From Xylophilus rhododendri (GTDB lineage: Bacteria; Pseudomonadota; Gammaproteobacteria; Burkholderiales; Burkholderiaceae_C): a stretch of DNA of 64,000 nucleotides. Position 1 is the stretch's first letter. Each line of letters starts with the position of its first letter. The DNA lies in the NCBI RefSeq assembly GCF_009906855.1, contig NZ_CP047650.1, positions 4,712,001 to 4,776,000 on the forward strand, read 5' to 3'. Position numbers and translations under genes: made by a program. Shown one piece after another: positions 6,119 through 28,271 of the stretch. Below the pieces are notes generated by a model. That model had not been told where the DNA came from. It searched no databases and saw only the letters and a program-made list of their open reading frames with translations.

Positions 6119-7708
6119 TCAGAGCTGCTTTTCGAGCTCGCCCAGCGCGCGGTCCATGCTGGCACGGATCTCGGTGGGGGCGAAGCCGTTGTCGTCGATG
6201 AAGGCCAGCATCGGGTCGCTGGCGGCGAAGCCGCGGAACTGCCGGATCAGCAGTTCGGCCTCGGCATAGCGCGCGTCGCGCTGCGCGCCCTCGACGCCCA
6301 GGGCCTGGTCGAGCTTGTCGATCAGGCCGCGGTCCATGCGGTCCAGCGAGACGAAGAGCGCCTGCAGCTGGGCCTGGACCTCGGTCTCGTCGAATTCGTC
6401 TTCCTGCTCCGGGTCGGCGTTGTGGGCGCGCACGCCCGCCAGCACCGCGCTCTGGATGGTGCCGAACTGGCTCTGCACGCTCTTGCGCATGCCGTCCCAG
6501 ACCAGCCGGGCGCCCTGCAGCACGACCAGCGAGGGGGCCGGCTTGTGGCTGCCCGCGGGCGCGGGCGCTGGCGCCGCCGCGTCGGCTTCGAGGGCCTGGC
6601 GCAGCCGGCGCAGCGCGCCGGAATCGGCGACCTTCTTCAGGATCAGCAAGGCCCGCTCGTGCAGGCCCTTGTCGGTGGAGTCCTGCGCCATCGCCCAGGC
6701 ATTGGCGAAGGGCTGGAAACTCTCGCGCAGGGCGGGTGTCAGGGGGCCGCGCTGCAGGCGTTCGAAATCGGGCTGCAGGGCCTTGCGCAGGGCCTGGACC
6801 TGGGCGGCGCGGGGATCCTCGGCCGCGGCGGTGCCGGCGGCCGCAGGCGCGGCGGGCGGCTGCGCGGCGGGGGCGGCATCGGCCGGGGTGTCCTCGGGCG
6901 ACTCGTCCTGCTCGAAGACGCTGCCGTCCTCGTTCCACAGCACCACCTTGGCGATGCGGAAGCCACAGGCCTTGACCGGCACCCGCACCTTCTTCACCAC
7001 GCCCGACTGCGGCTTGTCCAGCTGCAGCATCAGCGCGCTGCCCTCCACCCATGCGGTGCCGTAGGTGCCGGTCTTCACGCCGGCGGCGGCCTGCAGCTTG
7101 TTGAACAGGCCGCGCGCCCGCATGCGGGGATGCACGGCCATCAGGGCGGGCTGCTTGTCCTTGCCGTCGACGTAGGCGAACTTCACGCTGCGCTCGGGGT
7201 CCTTGCGGCACAGGGTCAGCTGCTTGAGCAGTGCGCGGGGATCGAGCAGCGCGCTGGGGGCGGAGTCCTCGTCGTCCTCGTCGCCCAGGGCTTCCTCGGC
7301 GTTTTCGATGGCCTGCTTGAGCGCCTCGCCGCAATGGTCGATGGCGGCGGAATAGGCATCGGCCGCCTTGCCGATGGTCTTGAGGGTGGCGAGCAGTTCC
7401 TTGTCGGCCTTCTTCTCCGCCGCCCGGGCTGCGGCGACGGCGGCCGCGGCGTCCTTCTTGAGCGCCAGCACGCCGGAGCCGAAGAGCTTGCTGCGCTTGC
7501 CGGCCTCGGCCTGCAGCTCGGCCACGGTCTTGATGGACCTTGTCCAGCCCTCGGCGAACAGTTTCCAGTCGATGGCGTCGCTGCGTTTGTGCAGGGCCTT
7601 GAGTTTGTCCGCCAGGTCGGACTTGGCCTCCCAGCCGCTCTTCGATTTCTTCTCCCAGAACGTGCTGCTCAGCTCGTCGGGATACTCCGGATAGGCACTC
7701 GCACTCAT
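6119..7708 (-). CDS. helical protein of unknown function, first gene of coiled-coil/metallopeptidase operon
   Basis: A 529-aa cytoplasmic-looking protein. The N-terminal 150 residues are helical and Lys/Ala-rich. An acidic linker (GDEDDEDS) follows, then a beta-rich segment near 165-265 with many Val and Lys. A low-complexity Ala/Pro linker lies around 285-310 and a second helical region follows with another Ala/Pro break near 395. No family is recognised. It opens the four-gene unit, starting at an ATG with a purine-rich stretch upstream (AGCGGAGCC). Its alternation of helices and linkers resembles the neighbouring 1041-aa protein, which suggests direct interaction. That is inference only. 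Confidence 0.7.
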   Translation of the reverse strand: MSASAYPEYPDELSSTFWEKKSKSGWEAKSDLADKLKALHKRSDAIDWKLFAEGWTRSIKTVAELQAEAGKRSKLFGSGVLALKKDAAAAVAAARAAEKKADKELLATLKTIGKAADAYSAAIDHCGEALKQAIENAEEALGDEDDEDSAPSALLDPRALLKQLTLCRKDPERSVKFAYVDGKDKQPALMAVHPRMRARGLFNKLQAAAGVKTGTYGTAWVEGSALMLQLDKPQSGVVKKVRVPVKACGFRIAKVVLWNEDGSVFEQDESPEDTPADAAPAAQPPAAPAAAGTAAAEDPRAAQVQALRKALQPDFERLQRGPLTPALRESFQPFANAWAMAQDSTDKGLHERALLILKKVADSGALRRLRQALEADAAAPAPAPAGSHKPAPSLVVLQGARLVWDGMRKSVQSQFGTIQSAVLAGVRAHNADPEQEDEFDETEVQAQLQALFVSLDRMDRGLIDKLDQALGVEGAQRDARYAEAELLIRQFRGFAASDPMLAFIDDNGFAPTEIRASMDRALGELEKQL

Positions 7709-18552: not shown

Positions 18553-19119
18553 TTACCGACCCGGCCGATGTCTTAAAGCTTCCGTCAGCTCAGAAATTTC
18601 CAGAGCATCATCGACCTCGACGCCAAGGTAGCGCACGGTGCTCTCGAGCTTAGTGTGCCCCAGCAATAGTTGTACCGCGCGCAGGTTTTTGGTTCGCCTG
18701 TAAATCAGCGACGCCTTGGTGCGTCTCATCGTGTGCGTACGGTACGCCGCCGGGTCGAGGCCGATTTCCTCTACCCAGGAGTCCACGATTCGGGCGTATT
18801 GCCTGGTGCTGAGATGGTGGGCATAGGCATTGCGCGACGGAAAAACATAGTCGCGGGCTTGAAGCTGCGCTTCTTCCAGCCAAGCCGCTACCGATACGCG
18901 GGTGAGTTCGGTGATCTCGAACTGGGTGGGCAAGCGCGTCTTCTGTTGAACGATGGATGCGCGCGCCGCCACTCGGCCAGCGCACGCGATGTCTTGGACA
19001 CGCAATTGCAGCAGATCACAGCCTCGCAGCTTGCTGTCTATGCCTAAATTAGACAGGGCTAAGTCGCGGGTTCGATGGCGCAGTTGAAGGTGTATGCGGA
19101 TCGCCCAGATGTCTTTCAA
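18553..19119 (-). CDS. short tyrosine recombinase/integrase (possibly 5'-truncated)
   Basis: A 188-aa catalytic domain without the usual N-terminal core-binding region. Catalytic residues are in order: arginine in SKLRGCDLLQL, THTMRRTK (H..R), LLLGH, and the tyrosine in STVRYLGVE. The first available start is a TTG at 19119; upstream the frame continues as APLK without an ATG before a stop. Related short integrases usually carry about 20-30 more N-terminal residues before the KDIWAIRI segment. The gene may therefore be truncated. It is the only recombinase in the window and lies at the end of the AT-rich island. Confidence 0.75.
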   Translation of the reverse strand: MKDIWAIRIHLQLRHRTRDLALSNLGIDSKLRGCDLLQLRVQDIACAGRVAARASIVQQKTRLPTQFEITELTRVSVAAWLEEAQLQARDYVFPSRNAYAHHLSTRQYARIVDSWVEEIGLDPAAYRTHTMRRTKASLIYRRTKNLRAVQLLLGHTKLESTVRYLGVEVDDALEISELTEALRHRPGR

Positions 19120-24064: not shown

Positions 24065-25003
24065 ATGGACACCACCCCCCAATTGCTCAACCGGCTGCGC
24101 ATGCGCCAGGTGGCGCTGCTGCTGGCCATCGAGGAGCGCGGCACCCTGCGCGCCGCCGCCGCGCACCTGGGCCTGAGCCAGCCCGCGGCCACCAAGATGC
24201 TGCACGAGCTGGAGCTGACGCTGGGCCAGCCGCTGTTCGAACGGGTGGGGCGCGGCCTGCGCACCAGCCCGGCGGGCGATATCGCCCTGGCGTATTTCCG
24301 CGGGGTGCGCGGCACGATGGAGACGCTCAACCGCGAGCTGCAGGAGTTGAAGCGCGGCGGCAGCGGCCGGCTGCGGGTGGGCAGCATCATGGCGGCCTCG
24401 CCGGCCGACCTCACCGAGGCGCTGATCCGCATCAAGGCCGAATACCCGCTGCTGGCGGTGAAGATCGATGTGGGCACCAGCGACCGGCTGATGGAGGGCC
24501 TGGACGAAGGCTCGCTCGACCTGGTGATCGGCCGGGTGCCGGCCCAGGCGGGGGACGACTACCTGTTCCGCGCGCTGTCGGAAGAGGCGCTGTCGGTGGT
24601 GGTCGCCACCGGCCATCCGCTGGCCGGCAAGGGCCAGGTGGATTTCGCGGCGCTGCAGGCCTTCCACTGGATCCTGCAGCCGCACGGCAGCCCCATGCGC
24701 GACGTGATCGAGCAGGAGTTCCGCAGCCGGCACACGCCGCTGCCGCGCGGGCTGATCGAGACGGCCTCCATCCTCACGACGACCAACCTGATCGCCCGCA
24801 CCGACATGGTGGCCGTGATCCCCGAGGCGGTGGCCAGCCGGTACGAGAAGCACGGGCTGCTGGCGATCCTGCCCTGCCGCTTCCGGGCGGAGCTGGCGTC
24901 TTACGGCACCATCGTGCGGCGGGACCGGCCGGCGGGGATGGCGGCAGGCCGGTTCATGGAGATACTTCACCGGTCCTCGTCTGCCGAGCCGGCTGGTGCA
25001 TAG
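24065..25003 (+). CDS. LysR-family transcriptional regulator of the sugar-acid operon
   Basis: A 312-aa protein. The N-terminal helix-turn-helix is LRAAAAHLGLSQPAATKMLHELE (given in two parts: LRAAAAHLGL and SQPAATKMLHELE), followed by LGQPLFERVGRGLRTSPAG and a periplasmic-binding-like effector domain. It is transcribed divergently from the Bug-dehydratase-aldolase operon with 112 nt between the starts, the classical LysR arrangement, so it likely controls that operon in response to the substrate or an intermediate. The ATG at 24065 gives the usual length; upstream in-frame codons lack domain content. Confidence 0.9.
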   Translation: MDTTPQLLNRLRMRQVALLLAIEERGTLRAAAAHLGLSQPAATKMLHELELTLGQPLFERVGRGLRTSPAGDIALAYFRGVRGTMETLNRELQELKRGGSGRLRVGSIMAASPADLTEALIRIKAEYPLLAVKIDVGTSDRLMEGLDEGSLDLVIGRVPAQAGDDYLFRALSEEALSVVVATGHPLAGKGQVDFAALQAFHWILQPHGSPMRDVIEQEFRSRHTPLPRGLIETASILTTTNLIARTDMVAVIPEAVASRYEKHGLLAILPCRFRAELASYGTIVRRDRPAGMAAGRFMEILHRSSSAEPAGA

Positions 25004-25092: not shown

Positions 25093-26385
25093 ATGCTTAC
25101 CGAGATTCAGCTGAAAAACTTCAAGGCCTGGCGCGACACCAAGGCGGTGCGGTTCGCTCCCGTGACGATGCTGCTGGGGACCAACTCATCGGGCAAGTCC
25201 ACCTTGATCCAGAGTCTGCTCCTGCTCAAGCAGACCGCCTTGTCGCCGGATCGCTCCATCCATCTCAACATGGGCGGTGACGAGGTCAACGATCTGTTCA
25301 ATTTCGGGGACTTCGACAATGTGCTCAGCGCTGGCGTAGAAGGTGAAGCGCGCCGGTTCGAGCTGGCCTTCAAATTCAGCCGGCCCGACTCCGAGCGGGT
25401 GACGCAGGGCGAGTTCAGTTGCAGCTACGGCAAGACCTCCAGCGGTGCGGTGGTCGTGCAGGAACTCAAGCTGGGAACCGAGGGTTTTCAGCTTCGTGTG
25501 CTTCGCCGCGACAAGGGCGCTTTCTCGCTGGTGGTCAACGATGAGGTGCAGCCGCGCGGCAAGGGGCGTGACTACGCACCGGAACGCTCCATCGCATTGC
25601 CGCCCCCAGCCATCGTGGCCTTGGGTGCTGAAGGCCCTTTGGTGCAAGACCTGAGCCTTGCCATCAGACGCGAACTGGAGGAGCTGCGCTACCTGGGGCC
25701 GTTGCGACGCAAGCCGGAGCGGGACTATGTCTGGAACAAGTCCAGCCCGGGGGACATCGGCAGCGATGGGGCTAAAACCATGGACGCACTCCTGGCCAGT
25801 GCCTTGCTGCGAGACGGCAACCAGGCCAAGGTGCTGGACGGGGTGTCCACATGGCTGAAGCGGATGAAGCTGGCCGACCGCATCCAGGCCCGGCAGGTCG
25901 GACGATCCACGCGGTATGAGCTGGTGGTGTCCCGCGACGGCGTCGATGCCAACATCCGGGACGTTGGCATCGGCGTCTCGCAAGTCCTGCCGGTCCTGAC
26001 GCTTGCGCACTTCGCGGCGCCAGGCAGCACCATCGTCCTGGAGGAGCCGGAGATCCATCTGCACCCGCTAGCCCAGGCGGTGCTCGCCGAGCTGTTCGTG
26101 GAGACCAGCCGCAAGCGCAAGGTGCAGTTCATCGTGGAGACGCATTCGGAACACCTGTTCCGCCGGATGCAGACGCTCATCGCGCAAGACAAGACCAGGC
26201 CCGACGAATGCGCCATGTACTTCGTCGAGCGCGCCCAGAAACAGGCTCGGCTTCGACCCTTGCAGATCGACGAGTTCGGTGCGGTCAACAATTGGCCGGA
26301 ACACTTCTTCGGCGACAGCGTTGGCGAGGCGCGCGCCCAGGCGCTGGCACGCGCCAGCCGCATGCGGAGCGACCGGCATGGCTGA
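25093..26385 (+). CDS. AAA ATPase (OLD/DUF3696-like), first gene of AAA-PIN-RNA ligase operon
   Basis: A 430-aa SMC/ABC-like ATPase. It begins MLTEIQLKNFKAW with the Walker A motif GTNSSGKS at 29-36. The central 70-280 is variable and the C-terminal half carries VGIGVSQVLP (signature-like, 291-300), Walker B TIVLEEPEIHLHP (313-325) and THSEH (350-354). This is the layout of DUF3696/AAA_15 proteins found in anti-phage and conflict modules, where the ATPase senses or regulates a partner nuclease. The ATG at 25093 starts the conserved N terminus after AGGAAA. It overlaps the PIN-like gene by 8 nt. No Toprim nuclease domain is present, so it depends on a partner for catalysis. Confidence 0.85.
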   Translation: MLTEIQLKNFKAWRDTKAVRFAPVTMLLGTNSSGKSTLIQSLLLLKQTALSPDRSIHLNMGGDEVNDLFNFGDFDNVLSAGVEGEARRFELAFKFSRPDSERVTQGEFSCSYGKTSSGAVVVQELKLGTEGFQLRVLRRDKGAFSLVVNDEVQPRGKGRDYAPERSIALPPPAIVALGAEGPLVQDLSLAIRRELEELRYLGPLRRKPERDYVWNKSSPGDIGSDGAKTMDALLASALLRDGNQAKVLDGVSTWLKRMKLADRIQARQVGRSTRYELVVSRDGVDANIRDVGIGVSQVLPVLTLAHFAAPGSTIVLEEPEIHLHPLAQAVLAELFVETSRKRKVQFIVETHSEHLFRRMQTLIAQDKTRPDECAMYFVERAQKQARLRPLQIDEFGAVNNWPEHFFGDSVGEARAQALARASRMRSDRHG

Positions 26386-26926
26386 TGGCTCGGTGGTGGA
26401 TACTAATGTCCTGATCGTCGCCAGCGCGGCAGACTACGGTTCGCCGTTCCGCCCGGATGCGACCCCCGTGCAGGACGATATTCTGCGCATGGAGGTGCTG
26501 GACTGGGTGCAAGCCTTCGATTGCGACGCCGGCCGCAGTGTCGTCTTGGACTGGGATTGGCACATCTGCAGCGAATACCAGAACAAGCTTAACGTCGATC
26601 AGGACTATGGTTGGCTGGCCATGATGGCAAAAAAGGACCGCAACGAGGTGGTCTGGATTGGCCTGGAGATGGATTCGGATGGTCATGCGATCTTGCCTGC
26701 TGACTTGGGCAGCGCAGTCACGGATCTGGCGGATAGAAAAATGGTGGCCGCCGTTCTATCGGCCCAGTCGGACGGTCACGATTGCCGCCTGGTCAACGCC
26801 TGCGACACGGATTGGCTGGACTGCGAGCCAGCCTTGAAGAACGCTGGTGTCCACGTGCACCAGCTGCTCGGCGACTGGCTCAAGCACAAGCACAGCCAAA
26901 AGAGCAAGAAGCAACGCGGTGAGTGA
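26378..26926 (+). CDS. PIN-like domain protein, second gene of AAA-PIN-RNA ligase operon
   Basis: A 182-aa protein. VVDTNVLIVAS at the N terminus with D8, then E66 (CSEYQ), D119 in LADRKMVAAVL and D143/D145 in NACDTDWLD, match the acidic metal-binding set and order of PIN-fold ribonucleases. A basic tail (KHKHSQKSKKQRGE) could bind RNA. The start at 26378 overlaps the ATPase stop by 8 nt, and its stop overlaps the ligase start by 8 nt, so the three are translationally coupled. It probably cuts RNA (tRNA is the usual PIN target) under control of the ATPase. The target is not visible from sequence. Confidence 0.75.
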   Translation: MADGSVVDTNVLIVASAADYGSPFRPDATPVQDDILRMEVLDWVQAFDCDAGRSVVLDWDWHICSEYQNKLNVDQDYGWLAMMAKKDRNEVVWIGLEMDSDGHAILPADLGSAVTDLADRKMVAAVLSAQSDGHDCRLVNACDTDWLDCEPALKNAGVHVHQLLGDWLKHKHSQKSKKQRGE

Positions 26927-27608
26927 TTCGGGCTTCTTCCGTTTTCCCCATACGCCGCACCTGGCGTGGCTCGGTCAGGATGCGCCTCGCGACGACAAGG
27001 TGCTCTCCCGCAAGGAGGCCGACGAATTCCTGGCCTGCGAGCTGACGGTGGAGGAGAAGCTCGACGGCGCCAATCTGGGCGTTTCGGTCGATGCGGCCGG
27101 CGAGCTGCTGTTCCAGAACCGCGGCCAGTACTTGCGGCAGCCCTATCCAGGCCAGTTTGCCCGGCTGTCGCATTGGCTGGCGAGCAGGGCCGACACGCTG
27201 TTCGATGCCCTGCATCCAGACCTGCTGGTCTTTGGCGAGTGGTGCGCGGCGCGGCACTCATTGGACTACGGCGGGCTGCCGGACTGGTGGATGGTTTTTG
27301 ACGTGTACGACCGGTCGGCAGGGCGCTTCTGGAGCGCTGGTCGGCGGGATGCCTGGGCGGCCGCGCACGGCCTGTACACCGTGCCCACTCTGGCGCGCGG
27401 GCGCTTCACGTTGCCGGGTCTGGTGCGGATGGTGGATGAACGGCCGAGCGGCTTTCGCAATGGGCCGCTGGAAGGCATCGTGGCCAGGGCGAACGGGGTG
27501 GAGTGGACCGCTGCGCGGGCCAAGCTGGTTCGCCCCGACTTCGTGCAGACCATGGGCGAACACTGGCGCAATCGACCCCTGCAATGGAACCGGTTAGCCG
27601 GACAGTGA
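26919..27608 (+). CDS. RNA ligase (T4 Rnl2-like), third gene of AAA-PIN-RNA ligase operon
   Basis: A 229-aa protein with all core nucleotidyltransferase motifs: I, EEKLDGANLG with the adenylated lysine K47; III, VFGEW with E107; IIIa, WWMVFDVYD; IV, EGIVAR with E185; and V, AKLVRPDF with K202. This is the minimal ATP-dependent RNA ligase fold without an extra C-terminal domain. The start is a GTG at 26919 inside the end of the PIN-like gene; longer frames read out of frame through that gene. Pairing with a probable ribonuclease suggests nick-and-reseal chemistry on RNA, or an antidote to the nuclease. It could also act independently in RNA repair. Confidence 0.85.
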   Translation: MSDSGFFRFPHTPHLAWLGQDAPRDDKVLSRKEADEFLACELTVEEKLDGANLGVSVDAAGELLFQNRGQYLRQPYPGQFARLSHWLASRADTLFDALHPDLLVFGEWCAARHSLDYGGLPDWWMVFDVYDRSAGRFWSAGRRDAWAAAHGLYTVPTLARGRFTLPGLVRMVDERPSGFRNGPLEGIVARANGVEWTAARAKLVRPDFVQTMGEHWRNRPLQWNRLAGQ

Positions 27609-27665: not shown

Positions 27666-28271
27666 ATGCCTTCCGCCATCACCAAAGACTCCACCGACAC
27701 CCGCGCCAGCATCCTGGCCTCGGGCCAGCGCCTGATGGCGGGCAAGGGCTTCTCGGCGGTGGGCCTCAACGAATTGCTAGGCGCCACCGGCGTGCCCAAG
27801 GGCTCCTTCTATCACTACTTCGCCTCGAAGGAGGCCTTCGGCGAAGCCATGCTCGACAGCTACTTCGATGCCTACCTGGCCGAGATGGACGAGATCCTGC
27901 GCAAGCCCGGCCTGAGCATGGCGCAGCGCCTGATGCACTACTGGGACAGCTGGCAGGAGAACCAGTCCTTCCTCGACTGCCAGGGCAAGTGCCTGGCGGT
28001 GAAGCTGGGCGCCGAGGTGGCCGATTTGTCCGAGGCGATGCGGCTGGCGCTCAAGCAGGGCACGGCGGGAATCACCGCCCGGCTGGCGCGGGCCATCGAG
28101 GCGGGCGCGGCCGAGGGCTCGCTCTCGATCCAGGGCGAGCCGGCGCAGGTGGCCGAAGGCCTCTACCAGCTGTGGCTGGGCGCGAGTGTGATGGCCAAGA
28201 TCGTGCGGGGCCGGCAGCCCTTCGAGGCGGCCATGGCGAGCACCCGGCTGATCCTGAAATTGCCTCCCTGA
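27666..28271 (+). CDS. TetR-family repressor (NemR-like)
   Basis: A 201-aa protein. Helix-turn-helix FSAVGLNELLGATGVPKGSFYHYF followed by the TetR ligand domain (helix-turn-helix here split as FSAVGLNELLGATG and VPKGSFYHYF). C105 and C109 in FLDCQGKCLAVK sit where NemR-type repressors have a redox-sensitive cysteine, so electrophiles or hypochlorous acid may be the signal. The gene has an operator in its own promoter and a matching one before the DJ-1/PfpI gene, so it probably represses both. A terminator separates the two genes, so each has its own promoter. Confidence 0.85.
   Translation: MPSAITKDSTDTRASILASGQRLMAGKGFSAVGLNELLGATGVPKGSFYHYFASKEAFGEAMLDSYFDAYLAEMDEILRKPGLSMAQRLMHYWDSWQENQSFLDCQGKCLAVKLGAEVADLSEAMRLALKQGTAGITARLARAIEAGAAEGSLSIQGEPAQVAEGLYQLWLGASVMAKIVRGRQPFEAAMASTRLILKLPP

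Follow-up and report, generated by a model that had tools for sequence, protein, structure and literature searches.

The operon considered here lies on the forward strand of the Xylophilus rhododendri genome, within a stretch of 64,000 nucleotides (the window, to whose numbering all coordinates refer unless a locus is named), and consists of three genes in the order ATPase (25093-26385), PIN-type nuclease (26378-26926) and RNA ligase (26919-27608). Each junction is an overlap of 8 nucleotides, recomputation of the coordinates having borne out the initial annotation in this respect. The first gene encodes an ABC-type ATPase of 430 amino acids, and the DUF3696-like ATPase that had been proposed is borne out by Pfam matches to AAA_15/AAA_21 and to a C-terminal DUF3696 (residues 370-414); the tail containing the latter (26200-26382) is considered below as a candidate element for docking the nuclease. 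The second gene encodes a protein of 182 amino acids, and the third, which begins with GTG, a ligase of 229 amino acids. Upstream of the trio stands a gene for a LysR regulator (24065-25003) and downstream one for a TetR regulator (27666-28271), further neighbours in the window being TctC-type receptors, a DJ-1/PfpI protein and a GMC oxidoreductase; among the ten window proteins scanned there was no obvious defence family. The G+C content is 63.8% in the trio as against 68.1% in the window, and the RNA_ligase family has one match in the whole genome. A tRNA search of the window found none, no pair of repeats bounding the trio stood out in the window, and in an empty-site comparison with six other genomes of the genus the relatives of the TetR gene were distant (best 30% identity among the matches listed). 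Two further features of the window are a phage-integrase-like piece of 139 amino acids (18556-18972, minus strand), some 6 kb upstream of the trio, and a 25-nt repeat present in four copies between 15280 and 16522, with the core GGCCAGAAGCG.

The active-site residues of all three proteins are nearly invariant. In an alignment of 86 relatives the ATPase keeps its nucleotide-binding motifs, which we take to be Walker A, the signature, Walker B and the switch-His, and a Pfam scan of its 430 residues finds no Toprim domain, so that it does not qualify as an OLD-family nuclease. The middle protein, on whose having a PIN fold the initial annotation had made its module idea depend, does model as a PIN fold with the expected acidic residue set, and these residues are invariant among the relatives aligned (64 of the 73 called PINs, those left out being near copies, redundant or cut off). 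The nearest solved fold is that of VapC, as given by realignment of the Foldseek list; plain Foldseek with the model gave no match at E<=0.001. For the third protein the earlier call of a minimal Rnl2-type ligase with its nucleotidyltransferase residues holds good: PF09414 is matched at 103.8 bits (cut-off 27), the 11 nucleotidyltransferase positions checked are invariant in 61 of 61 sequences (the alignment set comprising 60 of 85 called ligases, again leaving out near copies and redundant or cut-off sequences), and in structure comparison the closest matches of the model are Naegleria Rnl and T4 Rnl2. On this basis it is predicted to be an ATP-dependent joiner of RNA ends. Assignment of the ligase to Rnl3 was rejected (TIGR01209 at 12 bits, cut-off 136.9), as was assignment of the PIN protein to HARP, the HARP Pfam family not being matched.

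Part of this arrangement is already catalogued. The ATPase matches the PADLOC model HEC-03B at E 4.1e-86, while the window PIN matches HEC-03A weakly, at E 1e-5, although all 65 family members do match it, the best at 2.8e-28; since the two models are matched by adjacent genes, the ATPase-PIN pair is, as judged by these matches, the already listed HEC-03, a candidate (unproven) defence system of PADLOC-DB 2.0.0. The name also appears among detected subtypes in the accessible part of one paper (PMC13356809), and the literature searched yielded no account of the origin or testing of HEC-03. The RNA ligase, in contrast, is covered by no PADLOC model, the ligases of the window and of one relative (L013) having been compared. 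The initial annotation knew of no named system with this exact trio, and that claim now has to be divided: the pair is listed, but the sources searched gave no instance of the ligase as its regular third member, nor did any title in a partial listing of the open-licence literature describe an ATPase-PIN-RNA ligase operon. The regular third gene thus appears to be the new element beside the listed pair, the main risk to its novelty being the 2016 survey of RNA repair systems by Burroughs and Aravind, which may mention related gene sets.

The nearest published analogy is that of HARP with Rnl3, in which, according to the accessible text of PMC12153264, a gene for a PIN-superfamily RNase lies near one for an ATP-dependent RNA ligase (within 5 kb in a third of archaeal and 80% of bacterial cases), mostly in extremophiles and with a proposed role in RNA maturation. 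The likeness lies in the closeness of two such genes; the differences are another PIN family, another ligase family and, as far as that text goes, no ATPase and looser linkage. VapBC resembles the trio in the fold of its toxin, but here the PIN gene is flanked by ATPase and ligase genes and no small DNA-binding antitoxin is found. PARIS likewise joins an ATPase to an RNA-cutting partner, which in PARIS is a Toprim nuclease and here a PIN protein. T4 Pnk/Rnl1 acting against PrrC offers an RNA ligase that reverses a defence cut (in the part of PMC12409363 that was available), but there the ligase is carried by the phage against its host and a kinase is needed, whereas here it belongs to a host operon that holds no kinase.

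In order to establish how regularly the three genes travel together, the ligase was chosen as the better bait because the window PIN is too divergent: used as a query, the latter recovered no protein but itself from 40 relatives and had no match in plasmids, phages or viral contigs. Among the best 80 of 551 confirmed ligase loci, a selection that for this reason leans towards close relatives, 65 carry the complete set, closely spaced and in the same order, the ATPase match being partial in five of these (three of them at contig ends). The other 15 of these best 80 comprise four that are truncated by a contig end with a PIN piece at the edge, eight with PIN and ligase but without the ATPase, and three without PIN. 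Four PIN-ligase pairs lacking the ATPase (L021, L065, L071 and L078) have a GspA-like gene upstream on the other strand, called by Pfam for L021 and by likeness for the remainder, and look as if they were held at one chromosomal place.

On plasmids, where eight of 29 records with ligase matches were opened, trios in the same gene order occur in Azotobacter, two Aeromonas, Tistrella and Rhodococcus, and a sixth has its ligase interrupted by insertion elements. More remote ligases on Pseudomonas aeruginosa and Sphaerospermopsis plasmids lack PIN and ATPase neighbours of the trio kind; on the former (L009:4956-6974) the remote RNA ligase is followed by an AAA ATPase gene, a different ligase-ATPase arrangement. 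In a viral collection, 39 ligase loci comprise three full trios and 36 ligases alone (including L091, which starts at a contig end). On one viral contig of 80 kb (L093:6998-7660) a ligase of the same subfamily, 44% identical, sits among many small genes without PIN or ATPase, and is possibly a counter-defence gene. DNA relatives of the two trios compared were not found in E. coli genomes.

Two partly overlapping samples did not start from near relatives, one of 398 genomes of the phylum and one of 399 of the order. The ligase model matches 19 genomes of the phylum sample, 12 of them strongly (E 1.7e-57 or lower) and seven weakly (E 3.6e-36 or higher); 11 of the strong ligases stand in full trios and the twelfth is a fragment, while none of the weak ones has a PIN or ATPase gene near it. 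The PIN model matches 15 of the 398, in 11 cases with the ligase and in four with the ATPase only. All 11 strong ligases of the order sample (E 3.3e-86 or lower) adjoin a PIN gene, in ten cases with the ATPase as well (in one case the PIN is a mere piece at the end of a contig, and in another the ligase has an internal stop codon); the 12 weak ligases have no PIN near them, and PIN is found in 13 of the 399 genomes, twice without the ligase. Three genomes (G000, G036 and G494) are positive in each of the two samples; with this overlap removed, there are 25 genomes with PIN and 22 with a strong ligase: the ligase adjoins PIN in 21 of the former and in 21 of the latter, the one exception there being the fragment. 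Linkage of the three families had been made the other support of the module idea, and they are indeed linked rather than scattered, the ligase being a near-constant third gene of the ATPase-PIN pair. It is not essential to every form, because four of the 25 PIN genomes have the pair only, as do two of the four genomes matched by the HEC-03A model among 274 of the class (the other two having the ligase; at E<=0.001 this model missed the window's own genome). A search for ligase remnants at two such ATPase-PIN loci (L191, L193) gave none at E<=0.01. In the PIN tree four of the ligase-less pairs (L134, L135, L192, L194) are placed close together and L191 and L193 fall among ligase-bearing rows; the loci without ATPase that are not contig-cut form two groups nested among trios. 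As this quick tree has no inferred root, it does not separate gain from loss.

The relatives of the trio often sit in defence-rich neighbourhoods. When 122 neighbour proteins were compared with PADLOC (out of 199, from 28 of the 80 loci, after filtering by length and start call), 56 families were matched at E<=1e-30, as against one (dGTPase) for 122 control proteins; these are counts of families rather than genes, several models being able to match one gene (DrmD models make up nine of the 25 families shown), and the controls, 122 of 132 proteins picked from 142, were drawn from eight genomes, of which at least seven carry PIN and which were not matched to the neighbours' genomes. DISARM, type IIG and type IV restriction, a BREX helicase, Argonaute and HEC-05 are represented among the families; matches to RtcR models were set aside as probably generic sigma-54 activators. 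Behind the trio in two loci (L018, L062) come HNH and GmrSD-type restriction proteins, and an integrase gene directly precedes it in two others (L094, by Pfam; L095, by likeness), the second of which also has a primase-helicase gene. A primase-helicase gene is likewise found in P4-type satellites. The closeness to defence genes that the initial annotation had proposed to look for is therefore supported for a set of relatives, but not by the ten proteins scanned in the window.

The ligase is also found behind other systems, in a single locus each. In L069 (4972-7738) it directly follows near full-length matches to PD-T4-4_A (4.9e-203) and PD-T4-4_B (2e-93), and shares 81% identity with a trio ligase (that of L056); PD-T4-4 was selected experimentally for anti-phage defence (PMC9519451, accessible part). 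The likeness to the trio is that of an ATPase gene and then a small partner gene, followed in this one locus by the same ligase subfamily, but the ATPase and partner families differ. After the L069 ligase comes a DUF3800 protein matching PDC-M04A. In L041 (1453-5652) the ligase lies between an AAA_13 ATPase (PDC-S46, 1.2e-212) and an AlbA_2/RecG-C type protein.

The three parts have not all evolved in step. Over 80 trios the tree distances of PIN and ATPase agree well (rho 0.86; largest of 200 permutations 0.09), those of PIN and ligase do not rise above chance (0.09; largest permutation 0.16), and those of ATPase and ligase barely do so (0.17; largest permutation 0.16), where it must be remembered that the pairs are not independent and that the tree rows include fragments (the L008 ligase and genes at contig edges). 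With 95 rows the PIN-ligase value becomes 0.128, just over the largest of 200 permutations (0.117), and raw distances give 0.88 for PIN-ATPase, 0.16 for PIN-ligase and 0.14 for ATPase-ligase. The nearest neighbour is nevertheless the same for PIN and ATPase in 38 of the 80 trios, for PIN and ligase in 32, and for ATPase and ligase in 40, which speaks against free shuffling of the ligase over short times; close relatives keep the whole set, and exchange is visible at longer distances. Thus L052 and L018 share 86% identity in the ligase but 37% in the ATPase and 26% in the PIN, while L062 (Comamonas kerstersii) and L077 (Xanthomonas sp.) share 93% in the ATPase and 95% in the ligase but 31% in the PIN, DNA identity dropping near L062:6320 from some 95% to some 50% and recovering near 7040. 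A third comparison (L060 with L018) has the same profile at lower identity (ATPase 80%, PIN 35%, ligase 75%).

The stretch swapped between L062 and L077 includes the end of the ATPase gene along with PIN. In 290 pairs whose ATPase bodies are similar, distances over the tail of the ATPase (windows from alignment position 361, about residue 359) follow those of PIN at rho 0.66-0.79, as against 0.24-0.56 for earlier windows. The start of the ligase is not outstanding in this way (0.36; other windows 0.32-0.54, leaving aside a last window of three pairs), and partial correlations over all pairs, controlling for whole-ATPase distance, are weak but highest at the tail (0.32). These patterns suggest that the DUF3696 tail docks PIN, though linkage at the exchange boundary could account for part of the tracking.

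The favoured scheme, to which we would give roughly an even chance, is that the trio is a mobile anti-phage module in which the ATPase gates an RNA-cutting PIN protein and the ligase reseals the cuts, so as to set a threshold or permit recovery. The ATPase would hold and gate the nuclease through its DUF3696 tail until some phage cue freed or activated it, whereupon PIN would cut an essential RNA, most likely tRNA; the ligase would reseal stray cuts in healthy cells and would permit recovery after a brief or failed infection, growth stopping only on sustained activation. PIN would then be an exchangeable payload and the ligase a general reset tool unmatched to any one PIN. PIN nucleases typically require metal ions and generate 5'-phosphate and 3'-hydroxyl termini, and termini of this type can be sealed directly by Rnl2-type ligases. 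If the ends made here were of this kind, the ligase could act without end-healing enzymes, which would explain an operon that holds no kinase, phosphatase or other such enzyme. Jumbo phage ATP-grasp RNA ligases are by comparison generally accompanied by kinase/phosphatase-type enzymes (PMC7824862, in the part available), and the action of VapC in E. coli has been taken as consistent with 2',3'-cyclic-phosphate tRNA ends (PMC7790460, likewise in part); ends of that kind would not suit the trio ligase directly, and would count against direct resealing. Precedents for the individual steps, each taken from a partly accessible source, include the requirement for PIN nucleases in the DS-3 and DS-5 defences (PMC13092281), restoration of MazF-cut 16S rRNA by RtcB (PMC5408214) and T4 repair of PrrC-cut tRNA (PMC12409363).

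That the ligase might instead be a second weapon, adenylating, joining or circularising the RNA pieces made by PIN and so blocking their repair by phage enzymes, fits the same linkage and defence setting, and since phages own RNA ligases (as the available part of PMC7824862 describes), thwarting such repair would be of advantage; we consider it unlikely, as ATPase-PIN pairs occur without the ligase, its fold is nearest to nick-sealing ligases, and the simplest reaction for such an enzyme is to rejoin the ends of one cut. The initial annotation, beside cut-and-reseal control, had also suggested an antidote. Control of the toxin-antitoxin type, with the ligase (or the ATPase) binding and silencing PIN and ligation secondary, is rather improbable: PIN toxins of the VapC kind do act in pairs, the genes overlap, and PIN-ligase pairs without ATPase form two groups, but a PIN-specific ligase antidote is disfavoured because the ligase follows PIN poorly in evolution, one ligase type occurring with PINs 31% identical, and a mere binder would not need invariant catalytic residues. 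For the ATPase as antidote the close tracking of PIN is evidence not against. Quite improbable is a set for processing cellular RNA outside defence, as proposed for HARP-Rnl3, in which PIN would trim and the ligase join or circularise: patchy PIN presence in both samples, plasmid and integrase-linked copies, defence-rich neighbourhoods and families different from those of HARP-Rnl3 all argue against it, while the published linkage of PIN with an RNA ligase (PMC12153264, in part) and the seemingly stable PIN-ligase pairs beside GspA-like genes at several Burkholderiales loci speak for it. Finally, an independent RNA repair gene that has merely settled behind defence operons and is inactive on PIN products would account for the separate evolution at long distances and for ligases behind other systems (L069, L041), without PIN or ATPase partners (L081) or on the phage-like contig (L093), but is improbable too for a subfamily almost never found away from PIN in the two samples.

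Returning to the gated cut and reseal, the points in favour of the proposed repair role are that the ligase follows PD-T4-4_A/B and PDC-S46, that PIN and ligase occur without the ATPase in eight of the best 80 loci, that one ligase type goes with divergent PINs, and that no end-healing enzyme is present; the association of one ligase type with very different PINs makes it likelier that the ligase would recognise the type of break in the RNA rather than any one PIN. All this said, the interpretation in the initial annotation is partly supported overall. A wider proposal, which we put forward tentatively and regard as somewhat doubtful, is that RNA repair is a transferable part of immunity, with a reset ligase moving among HEC-03 types, PD-T4-4 and PDC-S46 and PIN payloads plugging into a constant ATPase via the DUF3696 tail.

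The occurrence of the trio through many bacteria, often near anti-virus genes, suggests a defence system with its own RNA repair tool. Dormancy or death is usually regarded as the outcome when a defence nuclease attacks host RNA, and RNA ligases are chiefly familiar as what phages deploy in reply; were a defence-type operon to have an RNA ligase of its own, reversible immunity could be put to the test in a compact module, each step of which could be disabled by mutating one residue. PIN exchanges that have occurred in nature would provide ready pairs for mapping what sets the RNA target, and the DUF3696 tail gains a testable role as a possible docking element for PIN.
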